NCBI GenBank assembly: GCA_002928515.1
Contig: PERI01000001.1
Span: 1-64,000, forward strand
Direction of reading: 5' to 3'
DNA: 64,000 nucleotides
Source of the DNA: Hyphomicrobium sp.
GTDB taxonomy: Bacteria; Pseudomonadota; Alphaproteobacteria; Rhizobiales; Hyphomicrobiaceae
The notes below the pieces were generated by a model. The model made no database searches. It was given only the letters and a program-made list of their open reading frames with translations, and was not told where the DNA came from. Positions 3,324 through 64,000 of this stretch are shown here, piece after piece (the stretch's first letter is position 1; each line of letters opens with the position of its first letter). Position numbers and translations under genes: made by a program.

Positions 3324-6300
3324 ATGAGTGAGATCAGCCCGAAAAAAATGACCAAAAAGCCTTCAACCTCGACGGTACCGGCCGGGGAAGAGGTGCCGAT
3401 CATCAAAGGCAGCCACGTCTATTTGATTGATGGGTCTGGCTACATTTTCCGCGCGTTTCATGCTTTGCCACCACTCACGCGACCTTCAGATGGATTGCCG
3501 GTCGGGGCCGTCCACGGTTTTTGCCAGATGCTGTGGAAGTTATTGCGCGAAACGAAATCGTCAGAAGCGCCAACACACCTTGCTGTGATTTTTGATGCAG
3601 GGCGTGAGACGTTTCGTAACGAGATTTATCCGGCCTACAAGGCGCAGCGCCCGCCTCCGCCTGATGAGCTTATTCCGCAGTTCGCGCTGATCCGAGATGC
3701 CGTCAAATCGTTTCAGGTCGCATGCGTCGAGCATGATGGATTCGAGGCCGACGACATTATTGCGACCTATGCACGACATGTTGTTGATGGCGGTGGCGAC
3801 GTTACCATCGTTTCGTCGGACAAGGATTTGATGCAACTCGTGCGTCCTGGCGTTACGATGTTCGACGGCATGAAAGCCAAGCGCATTGGCCGCGACGAAG
3901 TGATCGAAAAGTTCGGTGTCGCGCCGAACAAGGTCGTCGATGTGCAGGCGCTGGCTGGCGACAGCATCGACAACGTGCCAGGCGTGCCCGGTATCGGTAT
4001 CAAGACCGCTGCCGAATTGATCGGCGAATATGGGGATCTCGATACTCTGCTGGAACGTGCGGGCGAGATCAAGCAGCCGAAACGGCGCGAAAAACTGATC
4101 GAGTTTGCCGAACAGGCGCGCATCTCGCGCGAACTCGTGCGCTTGAAAGACGATGTGCCGGTTGAAATTCCGGTTGCACAATTGGGTGTGCATGATCCCG
4201 ATCCCAAGACGCTGCTGACGTTTTTGCGCGCGATGGAATTCAATACTCTGACGAAACGGATCGCAGAAGGTTTAGGGGTAGAGGCTCCACCGCCACTCGA
4301 TACTTCAGTCGGTGCGTCGGTCGCGAAGGAATCGTCGCGTGATGCAACTGAAGCAGATGCTTCCTTAGCGCCTGCGAGAACACGTTCGCACTCCGACACG
4401 GGTGCGGCCACCCCGCATGCCGCAGTGGCGTTTCAATCGCGAGCGTTGGCGGCCGTTCCGTTCGATCGCAGTGCTTATGAAACTGTAACGACGACCAAGG
4501 CATTGCAGGCATGGGTCGATGCCGCATTTGAAGCCGGTCGTGTGGCGTTCGATACCGAGACAACAGGTTTGGATAGTCATCGTGCGGAGTTGGTCGGCGT
4601 TTCGCTGGCTGTTACGCCGGGCCATGCTTGCTATATGCCGCTCGCGCATCGTGAGGGGGCCAGTGATCTGTTCGGTGGTGGCGGCTTAGCACCTGGGCAG
4701 ATGCCGGTGCGCGATGCACTCGCGATCCTGAAGCCGATGCTTGAAGACCCGAGCGTTTTGAAAATCGGCCAGAACTTAAAATTCGACATGCTGGTTATGG
4801 CGCGCCACGGCATCGCGATCGCTCCGCTCGATGACACTATGCTGTTGTCGTATGCGCTCGATGGCGGGCGCGGGGGACACGGCATGGATGACTTATCCGA
4901 ACGCCATCTTGCTCACACATGCATTCCATTCAGCAGCGTCATTGAGCATGCGCCTGGAGTCAAAAAGTCCGACAAAAATTTTGCTGGCGTTCCAATTGCA
5001 AAGGCGACGGAATATGCGGCTGAGGATGCCGATGTGACGTTGCGCCTTTGGCTGAAATTGAAGCCGCGCCTTCCCGCTGAGCGCATGACGACGGTTTATG
5101 AAACGCTGGAACGCCCCCTTGTTCCTGTTATCGCGGATATGGAAAAAGCAGGGATTAAAGTCGATCGCGCTATTCTATCTCGCTTATCGAGCACATTTGC
5201 GCAGCGGGCCGCACGACTCGAAGAAGAAGTTTATGAGTTGGCTGGCCACAAATTCAATTTAGCGTCACCTAAGCAACTCGGTGAATTTCTGTTCGATAAT
5301 TTGAAATTGCCTGGCGGCAAAAAAACAAAATCCGGTCAATGGGAGACGCGTGCAGGCTTGCTCGACGATCTGGCCGCCAACGAAGAATTACCAACGGATG
5401 CACGTCGCCTCATCAATACGATGCTGGAATGGCGTCAGCTCACCAAGCTGAAATCGACATATACGGATGCGCTCCCTGAGTTTGTCGATCCGGATAGCGG
5501 GCGCATTCATACAAGTTACGCGCTCGCATCAACGACCACGGGACGGTTGTCGTCGTCCGATCCTAACCTTCAGAACATTCCAATCCGCACGAAGGAGGGG
5601 CGCGAAATTCGCACAGCTTTCATTGCCGATAAGGGCATGAAGTTGGTTTCGGCTGACTACTCGCAGATTGAGCTGCGGGTTCTGGCGCACGTTGCCGATA
5701 TTCCGCAGCTGAAGAAGGCATTTGCGAACGGACTTGATATTCATGCCATGACGGCGTCAGAAATGTTCGGTGTGCCGGTGAAGGATATGCCGTCCGACGT
5801 GCGGCGTCGCGCCAAAGCGATCAACTTCGGCATCATCTATGGCATCTCGGCGTTTGGGCTGGCCAATCAGCTTGGTATTTCGCGCGAGGAAGCTGGCGAC
5901 TATATCAAAACGTATTTTCAGCGGTTCCCTGGCATCCGCGATTACATGGATGCAACCAAGAAAGCGGCGCACGCGCAAGGGTATGTGGAAACTATTTTTG
6001 GTCGGAGAATTCATTATCCCGAGATCAACACGAAAAATCCGTCGATGCGCGGGTTTTTGGAGCGTGCTGCCATCAACGCGCCGATACAAGGTTCCGCCGC
6101 TGATATCATTCGTCGGGCGATGATCCGCATGCCAGCGGCTCTTGATCGAGCGGAACTTGGCGGCGCGCGGATGCTCTTGCAAGTTCATGACGAACTGGTC
6201 TTCGAAGCGAAGGCCGTTGATGTCGAGAAGCTTATGGCTACTGCGCGGCATGTTATGGAGACGGCAGCAGAACCGGCAGTGAAACTCTCAGTTCCCATTC

Positions 6301-6344
6301 ATGTTGATGCGAAAGCTGCGGATAATTGGGACGAGGCGCATTGA
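3324..6344 (+). CDS. polA: DNA polymerase I
   Basis: This 1006-residue repair and Okazaki-fragment polymerase has all three classical domains. The 5'-3' nuclease spans about residues 30-320 (VYLIDGSGYIFRAFHA, FEADDIIAT, SSDKDLMQL). The 3'-5' exonuclease spans about 400-600, and its active-site Asp and Glu are kept (AFDTETTGLD), so proofreading is predicted to be functional. The polymerase domain carries motif A (DYSQIELRVLAH, about 773), motif B (RRRAKAINFGIIYG, about 826) and motif C (QVHDELVFE, about 950). A Pro/Ala-rich linker lies at about 320-390. ATG 3324 is chosen; ATG 3267 and ATG 3348 are in frame. It is longer than the E. coli enzyme (928) because of the N-terminal extension and linker. 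Confidence 0.97.
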   Translation: MSEISPKKMTKKPSTSTVPAGEEVPIIKGSHVYLIDGSGYIFRAFHALPPLTRPSDGLPVGAVHGFCQMLWKLLRETKSSEAPTHLAVIFDAGRETFRNEIYPAYKAQRPPPPDELIPQFALIRDAVKSFQVACVEHDGFEADDIIATYARHVVDGGGDVTIVSSDKDLMQLVRPGVTMFDGMKAKRIGRDEVIEKFGVAPNKVVDVQALAGDSIDNVPGVPGIGIKTAAELIGEYGDLDTLLERAGEIKQPKRREKLIEFAEQARISRELVRLKDDVPVEIPVAQLGVHDPDPKTLLTFLRAMEFNTLTKRIAEGLGVEAPPPLDTSVGASVAKESSRDATEADASLAPARTRSHSDTGAATPHAAVAFQSRALAAVPFDRSAYETVTTTKALQAWVDAAFEAGRVAFDTETTGLDSHRAELVGVSLAVTPGHACYMPLAHREGASDLFGGGGLAPGQMPVRDALAILKPMLEDPSVLKIGQNLKFDMLVMARHGIAIAPLDDTMLLSYALDGGRGGHGMDDLSERHLAHTCIPFSSVIEHAPGVKKSDKNFAGVPIAKATEYAAEDADVTLRLWLKLKPRLPAERMTTVYETLERPLVPVIADMEKAGIKVDRAILSRLSSTFAQRAARLEEEVYELAGHKFNLASPKQLGEFLFDNLKLPGGKKTKSGQWETRAGLLDDLAANEELPTDARRLINTMLEWRQLTKLKSTYTDALPEFVDPDSGRIHTSYALASTTTGRLSSSDPNLQNIPIRTKEGREIRTAFIADKGMKLVSADYSQIELRVLAHVADIPQLKKAFANGLDIHAMTASEMFGVPVKDMPSDVRRRAKAINFGIIYGISAFGLANQLGISREEAGDYIKTYFQRFPGIRDYMDATKKAAHAQGYVETIFGRRIHYPEINTKNPSMRGFLERAAINAPIQGSAADIIRRAMIRMPAALDRAELGGARMLLQVHDELVFEAKAVDVEKLMATARHVMETAAEPAVKLSVPIHVDAKAADNWDEAH

Positions 6345-6375
6345 TTGCTGGCCTTCGTCGGACGCCGTTGTTGTG

Positions 6376-6849
6376 TCAGGAACTCGGAGGCGCTTCATTG
6401 GGTGGCTTTGGATTTTCATCGACCTTTGGCCACATACTCTTCATCATGGAATCTGCGAACAGTACAAGAAGTGCCAGCACCGTTACAAATCCTGCCAATT
6501 CAACGTCACCGGTACCCGCCAACAATCCGATAGCTGCGGTCAGCCAAATTGATGCGGCCGTCGTCAGTCCTTTGATCGTCTTCATGCTGTCGGATTGAAG
6601 AATAACGCCGCCACCCAGGAAGCCGATGCCGGTCACGACACCTTGAGCCACGCGGCTAAAGCCATCGGAGTCGCCAGCTTTTAATGCAGCAATCACGGCT
6701 GCGCATGCACCGAGACAGACAAGTGCTAGCGTCCGCGATCCTGTCGGCATGCCACGTCGGTCTCGTTCGAAACCAATTGCTGCACCGCAGATCATAGCTA
6801 TTGTCAAGCGCACCATGCACTCGAAGTCAGTTGGTGGAATGATCGTCAT
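6376..6849 (-). CDS. MgtC/SapB family membrane protein
   Basis: This 157-residue protein matches the membrane domain of MgtC/SapB: four to five helices with the conserved GAAIGFERDRRGMPTGSRT segment (residues 22-40), then LVCLGA and GIGFLGGGVIL (about 74-84). The soluble C-terminal domain of true MgtC virulence proteins is missing; the tail is short and Pro-rich. The short form is common in free-living bacteria and is linked to Mg2+ homeostasis or membrane potential, though its exact role is unsettled. It is convergent with polA and lies 12 bases downstream of phaZ on the same strand, so it may be co-transcribed with phaZ. Confidence 0.9.
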   Translation of the reverse strand: MTIIPPTDFECMVRLTIAMICGAAIGFERDRRGMPTGSRTLALVCLGACAAVIAALKAGDSDGFSRVAQGVVTGIGFLGGGVILQSDSMKTIKGLTTAASIWLTAAIGLLAGTGDVELAGFVTVLALLVLFADSMMKSMWPKVDENPKPPNEAPPSS

Positions 6850-6861
6850 AGCGCTCTGGCT

Positions 6862-8268
6862 TTATTCGCCGGCTGTTGGCGGATGTTTGCCGTTTGCGCC
6901 ATTTAAGGCGCCATTGGCTTTGGATGCTGGCTTTGATGCGGCCTTCGATTGATCCCAATGTGGCGCAGTATCGGGGGTATCTTTAATGACGCGATAAGGT
7001 TGCGGCATCCGCGTGTCTTCGCCGCCGGTTAATCTCTTGTATTGAATGGTACGAATGAATTCACGGATGCGCGGCTGAATTTCTGTGCGCCAGCGCGTGC
7101 CGTTGAATACGCCGTAGTGGCCGACGCCTTGCTGCACGTAGTGCACCTTCTCGTCGTGTGAAATTGACGTGCACAGATCGTGCGCAGCTTCGGTTTGACC
7201 AAGTCCGCAAATATCGTCGCGCTCGCCTTCAACCGTCATAAGCGCGGTTTTTTTGATCGCTGAGCAATCGACAAGTTCATTGCGGTGCACGAGTTTTTTG
7301 TCGGGCAGCAAATGGTCTTGGAAAACTGTTTGGACCGTCTGCAAATAGAATTCTGCTGTGAGGTCCATGACAGCGAGATATTCTTCGTAGAAATCTTGAT
7401 GCTGTTTGACGCTGTCGCAATCGCCCTGCACGAGATTGTTAAACAGGCCAACGTGCGCATCCATGTGGCGTTCGAGATTCATCGTCATGAAGCCTGTGAG
7501 CTGCATGAAGCCTGGGTAAACGGGCCGCATGAAGCCTGCATGCGGAAACGGCACTGCGGAGATAACGTTTTGTTCGAACCAGTTGATCGAGCGTTGTCCG
7601 GCGAGGTCGTTGACTTTGGTCGGATTGCGGCGCGTGTCGATGGGACCGCCCATCAAAACCAGTGAGGTGGGTTGGCAATCATCATTACGCGCAGCCATCA
7701 GCGCAGTCGCAACGAGAGCCGGTACGGCTGGTTGGCAAACAGCAATGACGTGCGTGTTGGTACCAATAAAACGAACGAAGTCGATGCAGTAATCGACGAA
7801 ATCGTCGAAATCGAAACGGCCCATCGCTACGGGAACGTTTCGTGCATCCGTCCAGTCGGTGACATAGACATCATGTTCAGGCAGCATGGCCTGAACTGTT
7901 CCGCGCAGCAGTGTCGCGTAGTGACCAGACATCGGTGCGATGATCAAAACTTTTGGATCGTAACGCTTGCCAACAACGGCTTCATCACGTTCGAAGTGGA
8001 TCAAATTGCAGAACGGTTTTGAGAGCACCACCTCTTCTTTGATTGGAACGGTGAGGCCGGAAATTTGAACGCTTTTAATTCCGAATTCTGGCTTGCCGTA
8101 GCGGCGCGTAATGTTTTCAAAAACCTCGCAGGCGGCGCGCATGTTTTTGCCGACCGTTGTGTTCTTCATCGGGTTCATCGGCCAGTCGAGCGTTTGACGC
8201 AGCGCCTGCATACCGAATCTCATAGGGGACATGAACGCGTGGGCCATTTCATAGGCGTAATAGTTCAT
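6862..8268 (-). CDS. phaZ: Intracellular polyhydroxyalkanoate depolymerase
   Basis: This 468-residue enzyme belongs to the intracellular PHB depolymerase family, which degrades native PHA granules in the cytoplasm. There is no signal peptide. The nucleophile elbow carries cysteine instead of serine (VCQPAV, Cys178), as in the Cupriavidus PhaZa1 type. The acid is in GERDD (Asp351 or Asp352) and the histidine in GVGHYGVF (His384). The C-terminal PHB_depo_C region ends in FNGTRWRTEIQPRIREFI, followed by a low-complexity tail of about 45 residues. Start ATG 8268 is preceded by AAGGAAG. Together with the phasin-like gene at 14283 it indicates that the organism stores and mobilises PHB. Confidence 0.95.
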   Translation of the reverse strand: MNYYAYEMAHAFMSPMRFGMQALRQTLDWPMNPMKNTTVGKNMRAACEVFENITRRYGKPEFGIKSVQISGLTVPIKEEVVLSKPFCNLIHFERDEAVVGKRYDPKVLIIAPMSGHYATLLRGTVQAMLPEHDVYVTDWTDARNVPVAMGRFDFDDFVDYCIDFVRFIGTNTHVIAVCQPAVPALVATALMAARNDDCQPTSLVLMGGPIDTRRNPTKVNDLAGQRSINWFEQNVISAVPFPHAGFMRPVYPGFMQLTGFMTMNLERHMDAHVGLFNNLVQGDCDSVKQHQDFYEEYLAVMDLTAEFYLQTVQTVFQDHLLPDKKLVHRNELVDCSAIKKTALMTVEGERDDICGLGQTEAAHDLCTSISHDEKVHYVQQGVGHYGVFNGTRWRTEIQPRIREFIRTIQYKRLTGGEDTRMPQPYRVIKDTPDTAPHWDQSKAASKPASKANGALNGANGKHPPTAGE

Positions 8269-8894
8269 CGTCCGCTCTTCCTTTTTCTTTTGTCAGGTGC
8301 GTTTCGCACCTGCGGTAGGAATGCTTATGGGCAGTCAAACTATAACGCAGACAGACTGCATTTGTTCTCAGCGCAGTGCACAACTGGCGCAGTTGCGCTT
8401 AGATGGTGCATCGCAAGAGTATAATCCGATCCGTGGCAGCAACAATCGATAAATCGTGAGCTTGCCTAATGATAGGGCTGGAACGTGCAGGAAAGGTACA
8501 GTGCTTTTGATAGTAAGCCACACTCATTTGCCTGCGTTGATCTTGTGCAACGCCGCGCTTCTTGTCGTGCAGGTATGCGATTCTCTGAATTACAGCCGGA
8601 GCCGCACTAATTCATCGCAAAATATGCCGACAAGTCAGCGGAGCTCTATCGAGTAGCGATGGTCTCGAAATAAAGCTGCAAGTGTTTATGACGCGCAGAA
8701 AATTATTGCAGACGTTTGCTGCGAGCAGCCTTTGGAGCCCCTGCGACACCACTTTTGCGGTGTCGCTTATGCTGCGCTAACTTTTTGTTTTGCTCACCAA
8801 CTGCGGTCCAGTAGATGCAGAGCTACGGCAACGCTGAGCTCAGGACGGGAGTCCGTGAGAGTTCTCAGCACGGCCGCAGAGCATGATGCAGCGA
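8269..8894. other. Long intergenic region phaZ-infA
   Basis: About 625 bases without a supported gene. It should hold the phaZ promoter (minus strand) and the 3' end of the infA transcript. One perfect 8-bp hairpin (GCGACACC/GGTGTCGC, 8743-8766) lacks a T-run on either strand. A plus-strand frame at 8501-8656 begins with GTG after AGGAAAGG, but its composition is not persuasive. Confidence 0.5.
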
Positions 8895-9206
8895 TTATCG
8901 TCCACCGGGGCGGCGTGGGGGACCACCTGGACGCGAGCCGCCGCCACCGCCTGGGCCGCTGGCACCTTCGCTCTGACCGGGACGCACGTCCTTGTGTCGG
9001 AAGTTGATACGCCCTTTGGTGAGATCGTAGGGGGTCATTTCGACCGTTACGCGATCGCCAGCCAGGATTCGGATGCGGTTCTTTTTCATGCGCCCCGACG
9101 TATAGGCAATCACCTCGTGGCCGTTGTCGAGCTTCACGCGGCAGCGGGCATCGGGAAGTACTTCATCCACGATGCCTTCGAATTCTAGCATTTCTTCTTT
9201 GGCCAT
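8895..9206 (-). CDS. infA: Translation initiation factor IF-1 with C-terminal extension
   Basis: IF-1 binds the 30S A site with IF-2 and IF-3 during initiation. Residues 1-72 are the complete S1-type OB fold ([40 protein letters not shown]). The usual bacterial IF-1 stops here. This protein continues for about 31 residues of Gly/Pro/Arg-rich sequence ([20 protein letters not shown]) resembling an RGG-like RNA-binding tail. Start ATG 9206 is set by AGAGGA and by the family N-terminus; an in-frame longer start at 9278 would translate through a leader hairpin. It lies downstream of cspA on the same strand. Confidence 0.93.
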
Positions 9207-9223
9207 TCGGTCCTCTAAGGGTG

Positions 9224-9265
9224 CTTCACGTGTCGGCGCTTGTTGAGCGTACACGACACGTGAAG
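9224..9265 (-). promoter_or_regulatory. Perfect 12-bp inverted repeat in the infA leader
   Basis: CTTCACGTGTCG (9224-9235) and CGACACGTGAAG (9254-9265) are exact reverse complements, separated by 18 bases that contain a second small stem (CGCT/AGCG). The repeat ends 18 bases before the infA start codon, just upstream of the AGAGGA ribosome site, and 14 bases after the cspA terminator. There is no T-run next to it, so it is not an intrinsic terminator. It may be a leader RNA hairpin or a DNA operator for infA. Confidence 0.75.
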
Positions 9266-9278
9266 TGTTACTTCGCAT

Positions 9279-9311
9279 GAAAAGCGGGGAGCAGACGCAT
9301 CTGCTCCCCGC
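9279..9311 (-). terminator. Intrinsic terminator of cspA
   Basis: On the minus strand a perfect 12-bp stem GCGGGGAGCAGA/TCTGCTCCCCGC with a 4-base loop is followed by TTTTC, 26 bases after the cspA stop. It separates cspA from infA, which leaves almost no room for an independent infA promoter. Confidence 0.88.
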
Positions 9312-9336
9312 ACAAGTGGAGTGGCTTCGATAACCT

Positions 9337-9543
9337 TTAGAGCGGACGCAAGTTCACGGCTGCGATTTTGCCGTTACGTCCGCGCTCAGTTTCGAAATAA
9401 ACTTTTTGGCCTTCGCGCAGTGACTGTAAACCTGCACGTTCAACTGCCGAAATGTGGACGAACACGTCATTGCCGCCTTCTTCCGGTTGTATAAAGCCAT
9501 AGCCTTTCTGACCATTGAACCACTTCACAGTGCCGTTCGACAT
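9337..9543 (-). CDS. cspA: Cold-shock protein, CspA family
   Basis: This 68-residue single-domain cold-shock protein binds single-stranded RNA and DNA as an RNA chaperone. Both nucleic-acid binding motifs are present: RNP1 (KGYGFIQ) and RNP2 (VFVHIS), with the N-terminal GTVKWFN signature. ATG 9543 is selected by GGAGG eight bases upstream. The terminator just downstream and the following infA gene form a compact cspA-infA arrangement. Which paralogue this is cannot be told from the sequence, so the symbol is generic. Confidence 0.95.
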
Positions 9544-9961
9544 TCCATGCCTCCAAAGCATTTAGGCGTTCTTCGGTTGAATTACCAAAGACCATCAAAT
9601 CGCGCGATGGAGACGTCTTAGGGCAGGCGGTAGCGCTGTCGAAGAGTGAGCCAAGGCGTGTTCGATCAGATATTTATGACCGGGTTGGGGTTGAAAGGCA
9701 AGAACGTCGCAGGCAGTTCAAACCCCTAAAGCTTTACCTCAGAGCCTTGATTTCAGTTCAATTTCCGCAATCTTTGCCGCTTGACCCCTAAATGCGGAAG
9801 TGGGCTATTCGGCACATGAAAGAAAGCGAATTAACCCGAATTGTACGCATACGGACGTTTCGCGTGAGCACCGCTTAAGTTGGCTATGGTTACTGAATAG
9901 TATTTGGAAAGAGGACGATAAATTTGAAGCAAACCGCCCTCCTACGCTGTCGATACTGAAA
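9544..9961. other. Intergenic region upstream of cspA
   Basis: About 420 bases without a supported gene. It must contain the cspA promoter and, as in other csp genes, possibly a long 5' leader. No clear hairpin, promoter box or small gene could be recognised. Confidence 0.4.
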
Positions 9962-10495
9962 CTAGGTTCGGCCGCTCGGACGGTTTAAGGCGACAAAGCG
10001 GGAGCCTACATCGACGTGGATATGATCCATATCACGGTATGTCATGGTGCCGCCTGAGCGGTGATTAGCCGTGAGCCAGCGCACAACCTCAGCCTTGCGA
10101 CCGGGAACGCGGAAGTCGATGGCTTGCCCTGATGCATGCTTCGATGGGCGGCCTGAACCCGCAATGCGAGCGCCAGGGCGACATGTCGAAATGATTTGGA
10201 CATTGCCAAATTGAGATCGGATGCGGCTGAGAAGGTTTTGTGCCGATGATGTCAAGCAGCTTGTCGATGTACCAGATCCACCTTTGTAGTTCCGGTTGGT
10301 AAAGCCGCGGTTCTTAACTCTTCGTCCCGTGCGGTATTTCGATTTTCTGCCTGACCTATTGGCATGTTTTTTCCCCGAGTACTTACTGGAGTAGCTGTAA
10401 GATGATTTTTCACCTTGATAGGATTTTGCATTCGCTGCCACCGGTGCCAGAAGCGCCAGACATCCGGCAAGTGCAGTCAACGTGAGAATACGCAT
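9962..10495 (-). CDS. Periplasmic M15-family peptidase (YcbK/DUF882-like)
   Basis: This 177-residue protein has a signal peptide (residues 1-23), a basic Ser/Lys/Gly-rich linker (25-75) and a C-terminal Peptidase_M15_3 domain. The zinc-site pattern is visible: His120 and Asp127 in HASGQAIDFR, and His158/His160 in MDHIHVD. Such proteins are predicted D-Ala-D-Ala-type carboxypeptidases or amidases acting on murein. Two cysteines (80 and 105) may form a disulfide. Start ATG 10495 follows AAGGGG and begins the signal peptide; the longer frame to 10552 lacks such support. It is transcribed alone. Confidence 0.8.
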   Translation of the reverse strand: MRILTLTALAGCLALLAPVAANAKSYQGEKSSYSYSSKYSGKKHANRSGRKSKYRTGRRVKNRGFTNRNYKGGSGTSTSCLTSSAQNLLSRIRSQFGNVQIISTCRPGARIAGSGRPSKHASGQAIDFRVPGRKAEVVRWLTANHRSGGTMTYRDMDHIHVDVGSRFVALNRPSGRT

Positions 10496-10946
10496 GAGTA
10501 CCCCTTGTTTGATTTGATACTTTGGAAATTGAGAAGCCCGACGAGCTCGCACCCCGCGTCATGCGAGCCATCGTGACGTGTGACCGAGAAGGCGATGGTC
10601 ACGAGATGTTGGGGGACCGCAAGCGCCAGCCACTCCCTGTGCCGCACGGCCAAACCTACGAAAGGAGGTGGCGAGGGGAGACGTTCGAGCACAAAGCTCA
10701 ACCCCCATATTGCAGCGCGGCGAATACCGCGAAGTCGTGTGGCTGAAATGTGGCCGTCACCTAGCGTAGTTAATTGATGCGACGACCGGGCACAGACGAC
10801 ACGCTTTTGAGCAATTGCTGCTTCAAAGCCTATAAATCATGGCTGGAACGTGAAATAGTCCCGGCCGCTAACGGGGAAAGTCAACCATAACGACGAAACG
10901 CCACAGGCGCGTCGCGGGACTGGCACTAGGGAGAAGGGAGTCGATC
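10496..10946. other. Intergenic region between divergent genes
   Basis: About 450 bases separating the divergent peptidase and membrane-protein genes, so it should carry promoters for both. A strong ribosome-site-like string (AAAGGAGGTG, 10661-10670) has no start codon at a usable distance. Nothing else was recognised. Confidence 0.4.
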
Positions 10947-11402
10947 ATGAATTTTATCAAAGCGATCGTGCTGGGTTTTATTGCCGGTGCGATAGCAACG
11001 GTGACCATCCACGAAGTCATTAGCTGGCTGTTCTTGAATTATTGGACAGGCTGGGATCGACCGTCGTGGAATATGGAACCGGTCAGCAATTCTCTCTACC
11101 CAGATCTCGTAATGCCTCAGATTGCAAGTGACGCGTTTTGGGGAGGTCTGTGGGGTTCGCTATTCGGGTTGATTTTGGGTGCGCGGCCTGAAGGTATGAT
11201 GACCATTCGAGGCGCGATACTTGGCATCTTTTTACCGGCGTTGATCGGTGTCTTCATAGCTATTCCATTTTTGACGGGTCGCTTCCCACCGTTCTTTGGT
11301 GGCGACGTCAGCAAACTCATTCCAGTTCTTGTGATCCTCGCCGGTTGGGGTGCCATGACGGCGTGGCTTTACGGGTTGTTCCGCTATTGTCGGCTTCCCT
11401 AA
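10947..11402 (+). CDS. Four-helix membrane protein, unknown function
   Basis: This 151-residue protein has about four transmembrane helices (roughly residues 4-30, 60-80, 88-108 and 122-145). Gly-rich spacing in the first and last (GFIAGAIATVTIHEV, LVILAGWGAMTAW) resembles small conserved inner-membrane proteins of Hyphomicrobiales. No functional family is recognised. The start is well supported by AGGGAGAAGGGAG. It is followed by a good intrinsic terminator, so it is monocistronic. Confidence 0.7.
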   Translation: MNFIKAIVLGFIAGAIATVTIHEVISWLFLNYWTGWDRPSWNMEPVSNSLYPDLVMPQIASDAFWGGLWGSLFGLILGARPEGMMTIRGAILGIFLPALIGVFIAIPFLTGRFPPFFGGDVSKLIPVLVILAGWGAMTAWLYGLFRYCRLP

Positions 11403-11431
11403 TTTTGCTTCCGTAAAAACTGTCAAATTTC

Positions 11432-11460
11432 AAAGGCGGCGCGATTGTGCCGCCTTTTTT
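11432..11460 (+). terminator. Intrinsic terminator
   Basis: Stem AAAGGCGGC/GCCGCCTTT with an 8-base loop followed by a T-run, 30 bases after the stop of the upstream membrane-protein gene. Confidence 0.9.
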
Positions 11461-11589
11461 GTTTGCCTAGTCGGGAAAGCGTTAGGACCTTGCTGCTCCG
11501 CTCACTGACATGTGAGTTCATTTAGTGGAACAGAACTTGAGCTTGGGCGTTTTGAGACCATGATTTCGTTTAAAATGGAAAATTATCCC

Positions 11590-11859
11590 ATGATCAAAAA
11601 TTCAAAATTTATCTTAGCATGTGCCGTGATAGTAGGATTTGCGTCGTCAGCGACAGCAAGTGAACGTGCTCCGACAGCGAGTGAATCAGCCGCAATCAGT
11701 TCAGCTTTGAACACATTAGGTTATTCATCGTGGGGCAGTATCGAACTCGATGACGGCAAGTGGGAAGTCGATAATGCCGTTCACAGCGATGGCAAAGTTT
11801 ATGATGTCGATCTGAGACTCTCAGATCTTTCGGTCATTAAAAAAGATCTTGAAGATTAA
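11590..11859 (+). CDS. Small secreted PepSY-like protein
   Basis: This 89-residue protein has a signal peptide (to about residue 24, ATAS/E) followed by one PepSY-type domain. It shows the usual pattern: a helix ending LNTLGYSSW, then SIELDDGKWEVDN, then a hairpin with DGKVYDVDL. PepSY domains are thought to inhibit or chaperone peptidases or to bind ligands in the periplasm. Start ATG 11590 gives the signal peptide; in-frame ATGs at 11560 and 11575 are possible. It is followed 62 bases later by an Asp-rich secreted protein and shares the terminator beyond it, so the pair is probably one unit. Confidence 0.72.
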   Translation: MIKNSKFILACAVIVGFASSATASERAPTASESAAISSALNTLGYSSWGSIELDDGKWEVDNAVHSDGKVYDVDLRLSDLSVIKKDLED

Positions 11860-11921
11860 GCCAAGCTGAAAGCTCAGATGTTCGGTGAACTTTTCCCCCA
11901 AGATTTTCTCAGAAGGAAAAC

Positions 11922-12245
11922 ATGATGTCATTCGAGATCAAGGTTGCAGCGGTTGCTATTGCGCTGGGATTGTTTTCTTCAAGTGCGATCTCCGCTGACT
12001 ATTCTCATATGACTCACGATGGTACTGAACACCGATTGGTCAATGATCGTGATGACGATGAGCGTTATGAGTGGGGCAATTTTGGCGAAGCAGACGATGG
12101 CTTTGCTTTAAGCAACGCTTCAGAGCCCGTTTACAAAGACGATGACGACGACGATGATCATAACGATGATGATCGCGACGATGTTAGCGATGATCGTGAC
12201 GACGATGATGACGATGACAAGGATGATGACGGCCGCGACGGCTAA
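11922..12245 (+). CDS. Secreted highly acidic Asp-rich protein
   Basis: A 107-residue protein with a signal peptide (residues 1-24, ending SAISA/D), a short middle region and a C-terminal 40 residues that are almost pure Asp interrupted by Arg, His, Asn and Lys (such as DDDDDDDHNDDDRDD). A ribosome site (AGAAGGAAAAC) precedes the ATG. The tail could bind Ca2+ or other cations. Many secreted PepSY-associated proteins have acidic tails, but I know no assigned function. GAT/GAC codons are mixed, so it is selected protein sequence rather than a simple DNA microsatellite. Confidence 0.75.
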   Translation: MMSFEIKVAAVAIALGLFSSSAISADYSHMTHDGTEHRLVNDRDDDERYEWGNFGEADDGFALSNASEPVYKDDDDDDDHNDDDRDDVSDDRDDDDDDDKDDDGRDG

Positions 12246-12260
12246 TGTATTTACGACAAT

Positions 12261-12288
12261 AAAAAGGCGGCCTGAAAGCCGCCTTTTT
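12261..12288. terminator. Bidirectional intrinsic terminator
   Basis: AAAAAGGCGGC and GCCGCCTTTTT form an 11-bp stem around a 6-base loop. The A- and T-runs on its two sides let it serve both the Asp-rich protein gene (plus strand) and lepA (minus strand), which converge here. Confidence 0.92.
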
Positions 12289-12311
12289 ATTTATAAAAAA
12301 TCTGATTGTTA

Positions 12312-14114
12312 TTAGTTCTCATCCATTTTTAAAGCGGCAATGAAGGCCTGCTGCGGGATTTCGACCTTGCCGAATTCGCGCATTTTCTTCTTGCCGGCTT
12401 TTTGTTTGTCGAGAAGTTTTCTTTTACGCGAGATGTCTCCACCGTAGCACTTGGCGATCACGTCCTTGCGCATGGCACGAATGGTTTCGCGCGCAATAAC
12501 TTTTGCGCCGATAGCTGCTTGTATGGGAATTTGAAACAGATGCGGCTTGATGAGCTCTTTCAGTTTTTCGCACATGGAACGGCCACGGCTTTCTGCGCGT
12601 GACCGGTGCACGACGATCGACAAAGCATCAACAGGTTCGGCATTGACAAGAATTGATAGCTTAACGAGGTCGCCTTCCTCATAGCCCTTAATGTGATAGT
12701 CGAAGGATGCATATCCGCGCGATACGCTTTTCAGCCTATCGTAGAAATCGAACACGACTTCGTTGAGTGGCAATTCGTAAATTGCCATTGCTCGCGAGCC
12801 AACATACGTCAGTTGCTTTTGGCGTCCGCGCCGATCCTGGCACAATTTCAATACCGAACCCAGGTGTTCGTCAGGAACGAGGATCGTGGCTTCGATCCAA
12901 GGTTCTTTAATGTGATCGATGCGCACAACTTCAGGCATGTCTGCTGGGTTGTGCATTTCGATCATCGTGCCGTCGGTCATTTGCAACTGATAGATGACGC
13001 TTGGCGCTGTGGTGATGAGGTCGAGATTGAATTCGCGCTCTAGGCGCTCGGTGATGATTTCCAGGTGAAGAAGCCCTAGGAAGCCACAGCGGAAACCAAA
13101 ACCGAGGGCTGCTGAGCTTTCTGCTTCGAATGAAAAGCTCGCATCGTTCAAGCGCAACTTGCCCATCGCTTCGCGCAAGTCTTCGAAGTCTGCGGCGTCG
13201 ACGGGAAACAATCCGCAGAACACCACAGGTTGCGCCTGTTTGAAGCCTGGCAACGGTTCGGCCGTTGGATTGCGCTCGTCGGTGATGGTATCGCCGACGC
13301 GGGTATCGGCGACTTCCTTAATGGCGGCAGTAAAGAAGCCCACTTCGCCAGGCGTCAATTCGTTGAGCATTTCCTGCTTGGGGCGGAAAATGCCGACGCG
13401 TTCAATTTGATAGTGTCCGCCGGACGCCATCATTTGAACCTTCTGGCCTTTTTTCAGAGTGCCATCGACGATGCGCACGAGCACGACAACGCCGAGGTAA
13501 GCGTCATACCAGCTATCGATGAGCATGGCCTTGAGTGGCTTGTTGAGGTCGCCGGTCGGGGCAGGCAAACGCTCGACGATGGCTTCCAGTACAGCTTCGA
13601 CGTTAAGGCCCGTTTTGGCCGATACGCCGATCGCATTCGAGGCATCGATACCGATCACATCTTCGATTTGTTCTTTGACGCGGTCTGCGTCAGCCGCAGG
13701 CAAATCGATTTTGTTCAGGACGGGCAAAATTTCGAGATTGTTGTCGAGCGCCTGATAAACGTTGGCAAGCGTTTGAGCTTCAACGCCTTGACTGGCATCG
13801 ACAACGAGAATGGCGCCTTCGCAGGCTGCAAGAGACCGTGACACTTCGTAGGCAAAGTCCACGTGACCTGGTGTGTCCATCAGGTTGAGCTGATAGGTTT
13901 TGCCATCTTTGGCGAGATAATCGAGGCGCACCGTTTGTGCTTTGATCGTGATGCCGCGCTCGCGCTCGATATCCATCGAGTCGAGGATTTGCGCTTTCAT
14001 TTCGCGGTTCGTCACATTGCCACATAACTGTATCAATCTGTCGGACAGAGTCGACTTGCCGTGATCGATGTGCGCGATAATGGAGAAGTTGCGAATAAGG
14101 GAGGTGTTGGTCAT
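12312..14114 (-). CDS. lepA: Elongation factor 4 (LepA), ribosomal back-translocase
   Basis: A 600-residue GTPase of the usual family length. The G1 loop AHIDHGKST, the switch DTPGHVDF and NKIDLP are all intact. EF-G-like domains II, III and V follow, and the LepA-specific C-terminal domain is present ([21 protein letters not shown]). EF4 acts on stalled or mistranslocated ribosomes and during assembly. ATG 14114 is chosen as the family start ([19 protein letters not shown]); the frame extends 11 codons upstream. Single gene, terminated at the shared hairpin. Confidence 0.98.
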
Positions 14115-58071: not shown

Positions 58072-59100
58072 CTATGTTTGGCGAGAGATAAGCCTCAGCA
58101 AATGTTGAACTATGGTTATGGGGCGCCTTCCCCATTCGCGCGCCGTCAGTGGAGTCATCTCCGAGAATGCGTCTAACGAACGGCCACTCATATTGGGCAC
58201 GAAGGCTTTGCCCGACACGATCTCAATTGCGTGATCAAGAGCCTTCTTTGATGTGCGCTCCGCGAAAGGCACGACAAATTCGGAAATGTATCTTTCGAAG
58301 AAATCTTTGTGGACTACGTCGATAGCGAAGAATTGACTTCTATCAGTCCAATTGCTTGCCTCTACCGCTTCACTGCGGACTAATCGGAGCCAAGGGTCAT
58401 AAATCAAGTTCTGCGTCGTGTCCGTCACCTCGACTGCAATCATCGGTGCGTCAATCACCGCGACGGCTAGAACCAAATGCATGTCATGGTAGTAAGCTGT
58501 CGAAGGAGGTGCTTCTTGGTTCTGGAAGTGCTTCATGGCCTTCACCAGAGGAAGCACCAACCCATTAAATATTTCGGCCCCTGAAACTTCAAGCTCCTTT
58601 CCTTTTCGCATGCATTTTGACAGTGACATGCAGTGCTTCGGACCACCCTTAACAAACGGATCCTGAGGTATCCCTAGAGCCTCTTGGACGCTGCATGTCC
58701 AGGTCGAAGGATTGTCGTTGGTCATCGCCGTAATCGTGTCCCCAAACAAACCTGCTAGGGTAGGAAATTTGGGCATCCAAATTTGATCGGAAGCTAAAAA
58801 AAAGACGTAGTGCAGGTCTGACTGCTTACATTCGATTAGCAAATCGAGTGTGGGGCGAATTCGCGAAGATAAGGTGGGATCGTAGAAACGTCGCTCCGCT
58901 TGGATATCGAGTGTACGGAGTTCTTTGGTGTCCGCATCGATAAAACTCCATTCCTCGCGGACGTGGAAAGTACGCTTTAATGTTTGTGCAATCAGTGTTT
59001 GAAGCGGAAAGCCTGATCGACGCACCGCATCCTCAACCAGCGCATCGGTAAGTCCCGCTCCGATGGCGTTGCCAGGAGGATTTCTATCAGCAGTTCGCAT
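58072..59100 (-). CDS. Orphan protein with PD-(D/E)XK nuclease-like motif
   Basis: A 342-residue soluble protein with no recognised family name. Residues 45-95 have the arrangement of PD-(D/E)XK nucleases: a Glu in VREEWSFIDADTKEL, Asp65 in RTLDIQAERRF, and Glu90-Cys-Lys92 in LLIECKQS after a loop. This LDI...IECK pattern is common in restriction-like enzymes. The rest is unannotated. It sits alone between cstA and tRNA-Ala, and codon use looks AT-richer than its neighbours. ATG 59100 is chosen; a GTG at 59178 is in frame with an overlapping AGGGAG, so the start is uncertain. Confidence 0.6.
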   Translation of the reverse strand: MRTADRNPPGNAIGAGLTDALVEDAVRRSGFPLQTLIAQTLKRTFHVREEWSFIDADTKELRTLDIQAERRFYDPTLSSRIRPTLDLLIECKQSDLHYVFFLASDQIWMPKFPTLAGLFGDTITAMTNDNPSTWTCSVQEALGIPQDPFVKGGPKHCMSLSKCMRKGKELEVSGAEIFNGLVLPLVKAMKHFQNQEAPPSTAYYHDMHLVLAVAVIDAPMIAVEVTDTTQNLIYDPWLRLVRSEAVEASNWTDRSQFFAIDVVHKDFFERYISEFVVPFAERTSKKALDHAIEIVSGKAFVPNMSGRSLDAFSEMTPLTAREWGRRPITIVQHLLRLISRQT

Positions 59101-59349
59101 ACGTGCTCGAGCTCTTTCAACTCTCCCGGTTGAGCACAGCCAATTGTCGCGAGCCAGGATCGCGAAAATTCTATGCACTCCCTACCAGCATCCTAGACGT
59201 CAACTTTCGGCTGATCGCTATAATTCCGCTTGCGCAGCTAAATGTATGCTCATTGGCAAGCCCGTGTACCGCTAAAAAAATCTCTCAGCTTCCGCCCAAT
59301 AGACGGAACCTGTTGTTTCATTTCGATAGGGAAGTTTTTTTGATAGTCT

Positions 59350-60134: not shown

Positions 60135-61529
<1,395 letters not shown>

Positions 61530-61540
61530 GACTAGAGACC

Positions 61541-62563
61541 ATGGGGAATTTCGTGACCTTCGCAGAATGCGTGAATAGTCCGAGTTCAGCGTGCCTGACG
61601 TCGCCTGGGTTTTTGTTTCCGTTCGTCATGTTTGCGATGTTGGTTGCGGTTGGTGCATTTTCGGTGCGCCAAGATCGGACGCGATATCGACGCTTGGTGA
61701 AGACGGGTTTGTGGGCTGCATTCGGCGTTTTGTTCGCGAGCCTTTTGGCGATTGGGTACTTCTTTGTTTTTGATCCGGATGCTGCGCTGGGCGTTGACGG
61801 ATCCGCGCTGTCGCAAACCCTATGGCTTGTCGCCATTTCAGCGTTCGGCGGTGCGGTCGCGCTATTAATTGGTATATTGGGCTTTGCCCTCGGTGGCCGT
61901 GTATCTCAAATTTTCATGTCACAAGATGCTGCTTTGGTCATCGCGATCGACGGACCGGCAGCGTCGGGCAAAGGTACGCTTGCCAAGCGCATTGCGGCTC
62001 ACTTCGATTTGCCGTGTCTCGATACCGGGTTGTTGTATCGCGCCGTTGCGCGCGATGTCATGGCACTGGGTGGCAATCTCGAAGATGCCAAGACGGCCTG
62101 TGATGCTGCGCGACTATTGGATGCGACGACGCTAGATGATCCGAGTTTGCGTGGTCCGGCTGCCGGTGATGCTGCATCAATTGTAGCCCGCATCCCTGCG
62201 GTTCGCGCTGCCCTGCTGGATTATCAACGCGCCTTCGCTCAACAGCCACGCGGGGCCGTGCTGGATGGCCGCGACATTGGCACGGTCGTTTGCCCCGATG
62301 CTCGCGTGAAAATTTTTGTTACGGCAACAGCAGAAGAGCGCGCGCGACGGCGACATCTGGAGCATGTGGGTCGGGGCGAGACGATCAGTTATGACGAGGT
62401 TCTGGCTGATATTCGCCGCCGCGATGCACGCGATAGCGGTCGAGATATTGCGCCGATGGGAGCCGCTGCCGACGCCATCGTGCTGGATACAACCCATTTA
62501 AATGCAGAACAGGCCTTCGAGGCTGCTTTAGCGATGGTGTTGCAGCGAACGGCCAAATCGTAA
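61541..62563 (+). CDS. cmk: Cytidylate kinase fused to an N-terminal membrane domain
   Basis: A 340-residue protein. Residues 126-340 form a complete CMP kinase (P-loop [35 protein letters not shown]), which phosphorylates CMP and dCMP. Residues 1-125 contain three predicted transmembrane helices (about 24-42, 56-78, 94-119), normally absent from Cmk. The frame is continuous and the internal ATG 61916, where an ordinary Cmk would start, has no ribosome site. It starts 11 bases after aroA, in the usual aroA-cmk order. The alternative is a separate small membrane protein whose stop has been lost. Confidence 0.9.
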
Positions 62564-62623: not shown

Positions 62624-64000
62624 TCATCCGCGAAATGTGTTGGTCGCACTTTGATCCAGATTTGCGACCGGGATATCTATTGTCACCGTCAAGCCTTCGC
62701 GTTCCCAGTGGCGTTCGAGTTTCGCGCCGAGTTGGGTAACTGCGGCTGTTACAACCAGCTCGGAGCCAAACCCCGATCGTGTCGGAGCCTCTTCGACGAT
62801 GGGACCACCGCGTTCACGCCACCTAATCGTGAGGGTTTCGCTCGCTGCATTGCACGAGATCGCAAGTTCACCTGCTTCTGCGGACAAGGCTCCGTACTTC
62901 ACAGAGTTGGTTGCCAATTCGTGTAACGCGAGTGCCAGCGCTGTAGCCGTGCGCATGTCTATTGGTGCGTCACAGCCATCGACAATGATGCGTTCGGGAT
63001 TTTCGGGCTCACGATAGGGCGCGAGCACAGTTGCGATAAGGCCATGCACGGTATGGTCATGATCAAAGGTCGCGTGCACACTATTGGCTCCGTCGGATTT
63101 GACGTACTTGTGTGCCTTAGCGAGAGCGAGGATTCGTCCTCCGACCGTATCTGCAAATTCACGCGCTGCCGGTACGCCTCGGGCGGACATGTTGACCAAG
63201 CTACTGACCACAGCGAAAATATTCTGAATGCGGTGGGCTAGTTCGCGAGCGATTAAATCGCGCTGCGTTTCTGCACTTTTGAGATCGTGGATGTCGGTAC
63301 AGGTTCCAAACCAGCGCTCGATCACACCAGTGCTGTCTCTGATCGGCAAAGCGCGACCGAGCGTCCAGCGATACTGACCGGACTTGTGACGCAGGCGATA
63401 CTCAATTTCGTAGGGCTCGCCTGTCGCCAGCGAATGGCGCCACTGTGTCCACGCTTTTTGCTGATCTTCGGCATGGAACATGTCATTCCATCCTTCGCCG
63501 TCGGTTGAGCCATATGGCACACCCGTGAACTCGTACCAGCGGTCGTTGTAATAATCGTGGAAGCCGTCGGGACGGGTTGACCAGACCATCTGCGGCATGG
63601 TGCTGAGAATTTCGCGCCAACGTTTCTCTGTAAAAGTCAGACCGATTTGATCTTCAACGATGGCTGCGAGATCGTAGAGCGTGCGTTCGTCATGATCGCT
63701 CCAATCGCGCGGCTTTGCATCGATGGCGCAGAGTGAGCCTAGTACGTGGCCGGTTGGTCCATGCAGCGGGACACCGAGATAGGCAACAACGCTGAGATCT
63801 TTGATCGCCATGTTTTGTGCGACGAGAGGATGACTGCGTGCGTCGGTCACCCTAAGTGTTCGGCTTTCTGCAACCACATGTTTGCAGAAGGAATGCGAGA
63901 GCGGGGTTTGACGGCTGGAATCCCAAGGCTCAGGCAATCCAACGGTACTTTTGAAGAACTGCCGGTCTTCATCGACAAGAGTGACGAGTGCTACGGGAAC
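62624..64000 (-). CDS. GAF-PAS-HWE family histidine kinase, N-terminus outside window
   Basis: 458 residues are visible; the reading frame continues through the right edge. A GAF domain (VALVTLVDEDRQFFKSTVGL at the very edge, then HPLVAQNMAIKDLSVVAYLGVPL) is followed by a PAS domain (WREILSTMPQMVWSTRPDGFHDYYNDRW ... RWFGTCTDIHDLK). The HWE kinase core comes last: H-box ARELAHRIQNIFAVV, N-box ALHELATNSVKYGAL and the WRERGG motif. Typically a light-, redox- or nutrient-sensing kinase that phosphorylates a separate regulator; no regulator gene is in the window. Confidence 0.93.
   Translation of the reverse strand, partial: VPVALVTLVDEDRQFFKSTVGLPEPWDSSRQTPLSHSFCKHVVAESRTLRVTDARSHPLVAQNMAIKDLSVVAYLGVPLHGPTGHVLGSLCAIDAKPRDWSDHDERTLYDLAAIVEDQIGLTFTEKRWREILSTMPQMVWSTRPDGFHDYYNDRWYEFTGVPYGSTDGEGWNDMFHAEDQQKAWTQWRHSLATGEPYEIEYRLRHKSGQYRWTLGRALPIRDSTGVIERWFGTCTDIHDLKSAETQRDLIARELAHRIQNIFAVVSSLVNMSARGVPAAREFADTVGGRILALAKAHKYVKSDGANSVHATFDHDHTVHGLIATVLAPYREPENPERIIVDGCDAPIDMRTATALALALHELATNSVKYGALSAEAGELAISCNAASETLTIRWRERGGPIVEEAPTRSGFGSELVVTAAVTQLGAKLERHWEREGLTVTIDIPVANLDQSATNTFRG

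Follow-up and report, generated by a model that had tools for sequence, protein, structure and literature searches.

In a 64,000-nucleotide stretch of Hyphomicrobium DNA (hereafter the window), a CMP kinase (Cmk) gene was found to carry, in the same open frame, an N-terminal membrane domain with three predicted helices. On balance, we think it probable that the product of this fused gene is a CMP kinase tethered to the cytoplasmic face of the membrane, where it likely acts on CMP that membrane enzymes set free.

A complete CMP kinase continues a hydrophobic N-terminal domain

The fused gene (61541..62563, + strand) is a single open frame of 340 amino acids, running from ATG 61541 to TAA 62561-62563, and was delimited by its open frame, its Pfam match and its recurrence in six of 22 genomes of the genus. 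The original prediction, of 125 hydrophobic N-terminal residues running on into a complete CMP kinase, was confirmed: no stop interrupts the frame and Cytidylate_kin is matched. Residues 1-125 (61541..61915, +) form the membrane domain, for which no Pfam or NCBIfam family scored above its cut-off. The CMP kinase core comprises residues 132-340 (61934..62560, +), as judged from Pfam PF02224 and from the bacterial Cmk structures that are its nearest solved neighbours by sequence, e.g. PDB 4e22 and 1kdo.

The gene directly upstream is aroA (EPSP synthase, PF00275; 60135..61529, +, start according to the ORF caller), whose stop lies 11 bases before ATG 61541. The ORF caller extended the fused frame to an alternative TTG start (61526..61528, +) that shares bases with the aroA stop codon (TTGA); the homologues align with ATG 61541 instead. 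The aroA stop and the start codon overlap in four of the six fused genes (G010, G012, G004 and G008) and are 78 bases apart in G005. Further upstream than aroA, on the opposite strand, lies a FYDLN_acid gene and, downstream of that, a 368-aa ORF (58072-59178, -) with no Pfam match at E<=0.001. Just 3' of cmk, a GAF/PAS/HWE histidine kinase frame (62624-64000, -) lies antisense and reaches the end of the window. By eye, an S1-like protein is encoded some distance downstream of cmk in G004 and G005.

Ordinary Cmk is a soluble protein of about 210-230 aa. The kinase part of the fused protein has the features of a (d)CMP kinase: residues 134-333 match the complete Cytidylate_kin domain (PF02224, E=1.5e-51), and TIGR00017, the (d)CMP kinase family, scored 159.4 bits against a cut-off of 135.55. 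A P-loop, GPAASGKG, was located in the sequence and alignment at residues 138-145 (61952..61975, +). What we take to be the ligand residues of E. coli Cmk align with K144, T162, R167, R222, R244, D245, R294, D298 and R301, where Thr162 takes the place of E. coli Ser36. All nine positions are kept in the window protein and are invariant in the five fused proteins aligned, so that kinase activity is expected; from these residues, the domain appears intact and is probably active. No other gene of the genome gave a Cytidylate_kin match above the cut-off of 26: the next place reached 24.7 bits and covered only the first 39 positions of the family.

The membrane domain has a predicted N-out/C-in topology

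The three helices originally predicted for residues 1-125 were recovered as three hydrophobic segments that agree with three AlphaFold helices. Segment 1 (residues 24-42; 61610..61666, +; AlphaFold helix 22-44) is followed by an Arg-rich loop predicted to be cytoplasmic, segment 2 (residues 59-77; 61715..61771, +; AlphaFold helix 46-76) by an acidic loop predicted to be periplasmic, and segment 3 (residues 96-114; 61826..61882, +; AlphaFold helix 89-127) completes the domain. Their Kyte-Doolittle means are 2.36, 2.24 and 2.35, respectively. Three hydrophobic segments with a mean above 1.0 were present in all seven homologues, namely the six fused proteins and a stand-alone protein from the genome G108. 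The first segment of the latter had a mean of 1.54, which lies below the stricter threshold of 1.6 that we used for gap ORFs, and all other segments had means of 1.66-2.69.

The distribution of charge is consistent with a positive-inside arrangement. Across the seven homologues, the N-terminus contains no K/R, the first loop 5-8, and the second loop 0-3 together with 2-5 D/E; the C-terminal side has 1-6 K/R in the fused proteins (one in the window protein) and two in G108. The signal is weakest in G005, where the second loop has three K/R and two D/E. An N-out/C-in pattern is therefore predicted for all seven homologues, which would leave Cmk in the cytoplasm. Such an arrangement fits the enzyme, since Cmk must be cytoplasmic to meet ATP and CMP. 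The membrane-anchored form proposed in the original prediction is thus well supported by hydropathy, the positive-inside pattern and the AlphaFold helices, all of them predictions.

AlphaFold modelling of the full protein (five sequences), the source of the helices given above, had a mean pLDDT of 75 and a pTM of 0.46. The membrane domain alone was modelled as three long helices with a mean pLDDT of 82. Since the pTM was 0.46 and the Cmk part of the full model agreed with known Cmk structures at a TM of only about 0.5, the model is no reliable guide to how the kinase is placed under its anchor.

A C-x7-C-x3-P motif (residues 10-22; 61568..61606, +), predicted to lie on the periplasmic side, was found in seven of seven homologues. 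C10, P14, C18, P22, A36, R43, R50, L64, P79, W95 and G118 are invariant in the six fused domains; with the G108 protein added, the invariant positions are C10, C18, P22, G38, L64, P79 and W95. There is no acidic residue or histidine among the invariants of the six domains, which suggests an anchor rather than a transporter or an enzyme. A fold search with the membrane domain gave no PDB match at E<=0.001. NCBIfam gave none over the cut-off for the window domain (best E=0.0045, 16.9 bits against 33), nor did Pfam for five of the six fused domains (best NrsF, 16.8 bits against 26.8) or for the stand-alone G108 protein.

Six of 22 Hyphomicrobium genomes share the fusion

Cmk was present in all 22 Hyphomicrobium genomes searched, and in six of them (G000, G010, G012, G004, G008 and G005) the membrane domain is joined to it in frame without a stop. 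The other five fused proteins are 54-66% identical to the window protein over nearly their full length, with N-terminal homology at E values from 3.3e-38 to 3.4e-6. Fifteen of the 16 unfused genomes have aroA followed by an ordinary cmk, directly, with the kinase core starting between -1 and 73 bases from the aroA stop; in the sixteenth, G021, a 986-base gap with other ORFs separates the two genes. The corresponding distance from aroA stop to kinase core in the fused genes is 395-401 bases, or 498 in G005. Separate genes in relatives, which the original prediction had regarded as evidence against a fusion, thus exist in part: aroA and cmk abut without the domain in 15 of the 22 genomes and G108 has a separate homologous gene, but the six fused genes have no stop between the two parts. 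As 16 of the 22 genomes lack the fusion, the domain is not needed in general.

The G012/G004 pair is the only one in which silent sites are far from saturation, the other 14 pairs being near saturation and little informative. Differences in its N-terminal part are distributed 10/2/42 over codon positions 1/2/3, with a dN of 0.040 and a dS of 0.659 for the N-terminal domain, as compared with 0.022 and 0.300 for the Cmk part. The membrane domain evolves faster than Cmk. Judged by these substitutions, it appears to be under purifying selection in this one informative pair, and dN/dS together with the codon-position bias makes it very likely that the N-terminal region is translated and under selection.

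Origin and spread of the domain

A search of 103 family genomes with an N-terminal profile recovered the six fused genes along with two other matches, one to a stand-alone gene in G108 (E 7.9e-19) and a weak one in G066 (E 0.0027). The G066 match was dropped, since a stop interrupts it and a long frame opposite it was judged by eye to encode a transporter. G108 belongs to another genus, and its gene, which encodes a 123-aa homologue with its own stop, lies between aroA and cmk on the same contig. The interval concerned (4688-13922) also holds carbamoyltransferase-like, LysR-like and other genes, named by eye. G108 is a draft of 450 contigs with 7% contamination, its genus mates gave no match to the N-terminal profile, and its AroA groups with that of fused Hyphomicrobium, its Cmk with those of other genera. 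In view of these features, the stand-alone gene could reflect transfer, contamination or gene fission. The membrane domain probably originated as a separate small membrane protein whose gene lay close to aroA and cmk, or can at any rate occur in that form.

In aroA-cmk gaps of at least 150 bases, looked for in the 75 of 91 family pieces with both genes, the profile matched only the six fused genes and G108, the next best frame having an E value of 0.45. In the G021 gap, the aroA tail (LGARYAAG and a stop) occurs twice, and there are two small hydrophobic ORFs unrelated to the domain, with MPLAE near the start of each, across an aroA tail; it looks like a tandem duplication. In G099, the 391-base gap between aroA and cmk is filled by a small ORF with three hydrophobic segments that extends a few codons into cmk. 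Remote homology of these three ORFs (two in G021, one in G099) to the domain was not supported by hhalign (probabilities 0.3-1.1%).

A combined AroA and Cmk tree was built from 29 genomes, with seven rows from outside the genus, in six of which Cmk is partial. It places the 15 other unfused Hyphomicrobium genomes in one clade (98.8/100), G021 as sister to the fused G010 (98.9/94) and G005 with G108 (97.3/81); other forks among the fused genomes are poorly resolved, except for G012/G004. On the Cmk tree and on the AroA tree alike, three changes are needed to account for the fused genomes, and strong branch support makes at least two of them unavoidable. A single gain followed by losses would fit, as would an earlier gain followed by a larger number of losses.

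Beyond the family, the A3 profile was searched in 397 order and 385 class genomes, which are samples of larger groups, with no more than 11 candidates scored in each genome. Partial matches outside Hyphomicrobium arose in 19 order and eight class genomes (best E 3.3e-4). Fourteen of these 27 loci were inspected, and several are by eye transporter permeases. These order and class samples contained no further convincing copy of the domain, searches of plasmids and phages with the G010 domain were negative, and a genome-contig scan with the window protein as query gave no match either. At least two membrane-like segments (mean >1.6) in frame before Cmk were seen in six of 149 genomes, all six being the fused Hyphomicrobium. 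The 149 are the 91 family and 58 further order and class genomes with a region before Cmk. Their class part is a selected set, taken from a search that matched Cmk in 342 of 385 genomes; it consists, among the matches listed, of the best 29 loci besides that of the window and of all but one (G756) of 41 additional rows with open frames of at least 300 aa, 11 genomes being common to the two groups. In the 12 of 103 family genomes outside the 149, Cmk gave either no match or only truncated or doubtful ones. One class genome, G779, has by eye a fusion of the AroA-Cmk kind, its aroA-like frame continuing into cmk with no intervening stop. The membrane domain is so far centred on Hyphomicrobium.

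Alternative explanations

The rarity of the architecture, and nothing else, would favour a sequencing error or a chance open frame. The same stop-free frame is present in six of the 22 genomes, in agreement with the original preference for a fusion over an error, the differences are biased to the third codon position, and the start overlaps the aroA stop in four of the six genes; the six genomes and the codon-position bias rule this explanation out, and we give it practically no chance. Alternatively, the gene might yield two products, with an internal start giving a soluble Cmk in addition to the full-length membrane form. A scan of the six fused genes for in-frame ATG, GTG, TTG or CTG codons up to 24 codons upstream of the AIDGP kinase core found one or more TTGs in the window as well as an ATG nine codons ahead of the core (61916..61918, +), an ATG 14 codons and TTGs three and five codons before the core in G012 and G004, an ATG, a GTG and a TTG in G008, and a GTG two codons before the core in G005. 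On codon content, an internal-start product is thus possible in five of the six genes. In the remaining one, G010, there is no ATG, GTG or TTG within this distance, only CTG, and a soluble second product is therefore excluded there unless CTG is used. Moreover, internal start positions vary among the genomes except in the close pair G012/G004, none of the other five genes has a start codon equivalent to ATG 61916, and the 20 bases before this ATG contain by eye no Shine-Dalgarno-like sequence, as originally noted. We consider a second, soluble product improbable.

The main rival is a neutral fusion, in which a separate small membrane protein with a role of its own was joined to cmk by stop loss and tethering is a tolerated side effect. 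The stand-alone homologue in G108, with other genes between it and its neighbours aroA and cmk, argues for this, as do the 16 of 22 genomes that lack the fusion and the retention of the C-x7-C-x3-P motif, which suggests more than a plain anchor. The unrelated small hydrophobic ORFs of G021 and G099 point the same way, indicating that small membrane genes between aroA and cmk are not rare accidents. Against it, the six fused genes have diverged to 54% identity and none has a stop between its parts, and there is only one stand-alone copy in 103 family genomes. We regard this explanation as unlikely, though as deserving serious consideration, and favour a functional tethering of Cmk.

Discussion

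In the mechanism that we favour, a single polypeptide would begin with a short periplasmic stretch bearing the conserved cysteine pair and cross the membrane in three helices, with the C-terminus of the membrane domain in the cytoplasm, where a short linker joins it to the CMP kinase. All or most Cmk of these cells would then be held at the inner face of the cytoplasmic membrane. CDP-alcohol phosphotransferases and Kdo transfer both release CMP at the inner membrane. The tethered enzyme might phosphorylate CMP from these membrane enzymes (CDP-alcohol phosphotransferases and Kdo transferase) and so help to return it to CTP. Since just one Cmk in the genome passes the cut-off, CMP recycling would run through the fused enzyme. 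The genome encodes three PF01066 (membrane CDP-alcohol phosphotransferase) proteins; this family was matched in 14 of 14 control genomes as well. The tether itself is, as far as the models and predictions go, well supported, and the channelling role in lipid or LPS synthesis is one that we infer. A more elaborate scheme is conceivable for this part of Hyphomicrobium, in which the only Cmk is obligately tethered and the cysteine pair on the periplasmic side acts as a switch that responds to redox state or to the envelope. CMP from phospholipid and Kdo transfer would then be recycled where it arises, and the supply of CTP for envelope growth would be adjusted from outside. This we offer as speculation, with little expectation that it will prove correct.

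CMP recycling is usually regarded as a soluble, cytosolic step. The fused Cmk probably works at the inner membrane, where lipid and lipopolysaccharide synthesis releases CMP, and a natural membrane-tethered Cmk, if true, would make local nucleotide recycling directly testable. The mixed genus, with six fused and 16 unfused among 22 genomes, offers a natural comparison. The finding also points to a small membrane-protein family that is unnamed in Pfam and NCBIfam.

How does the fused protein compare with known systems? It resembles the Cmk family (TIGR00017/PF02224) in its complete kinase, P-loop and CMP-binding residues, and in an aroA-cmk gene order shared with most family genomes examined; it differs in the additional 125-residue N-terminal three-helix membrane domain. 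Fusions of Cmk are represented by AroA-Cmk (NF008816), PanC-Cmk (NF010004) and Cmk-Der (NF007071), which likewise hold Cmk in one chain with another domain. The window protein scored 165.3, 151.1 and 122.9 bits against these families, below their cut-offs of 943, 524 and 953, and the best stretch fell in the Cmk part each time; unlike theirs, its partner is an unnamed membrane domain and not an enzyme.

Among the papers listed in the literature searches, which are no proof of absence from print, no title or abstract opening names a membrane-anchored Cmk. A published account describes IspH fusions, among them one with CMP kinase that is confined to a single species, and argues that an IspH-UbiA fusion places IspH at the membrane, raising local substrate (PMC4746011). 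There, as here, a soluble biosynthetic enzyme is probably brought to the membrane by fusion, whereas the enzymes are unrelated and the UbiA part is itself taken as an enzyme with about nine helices (PMC4746011). Another report links cytidylate kinase CT452 to the uncharacterised protein CT379, as inferred from gene fusion (PMC2248599).
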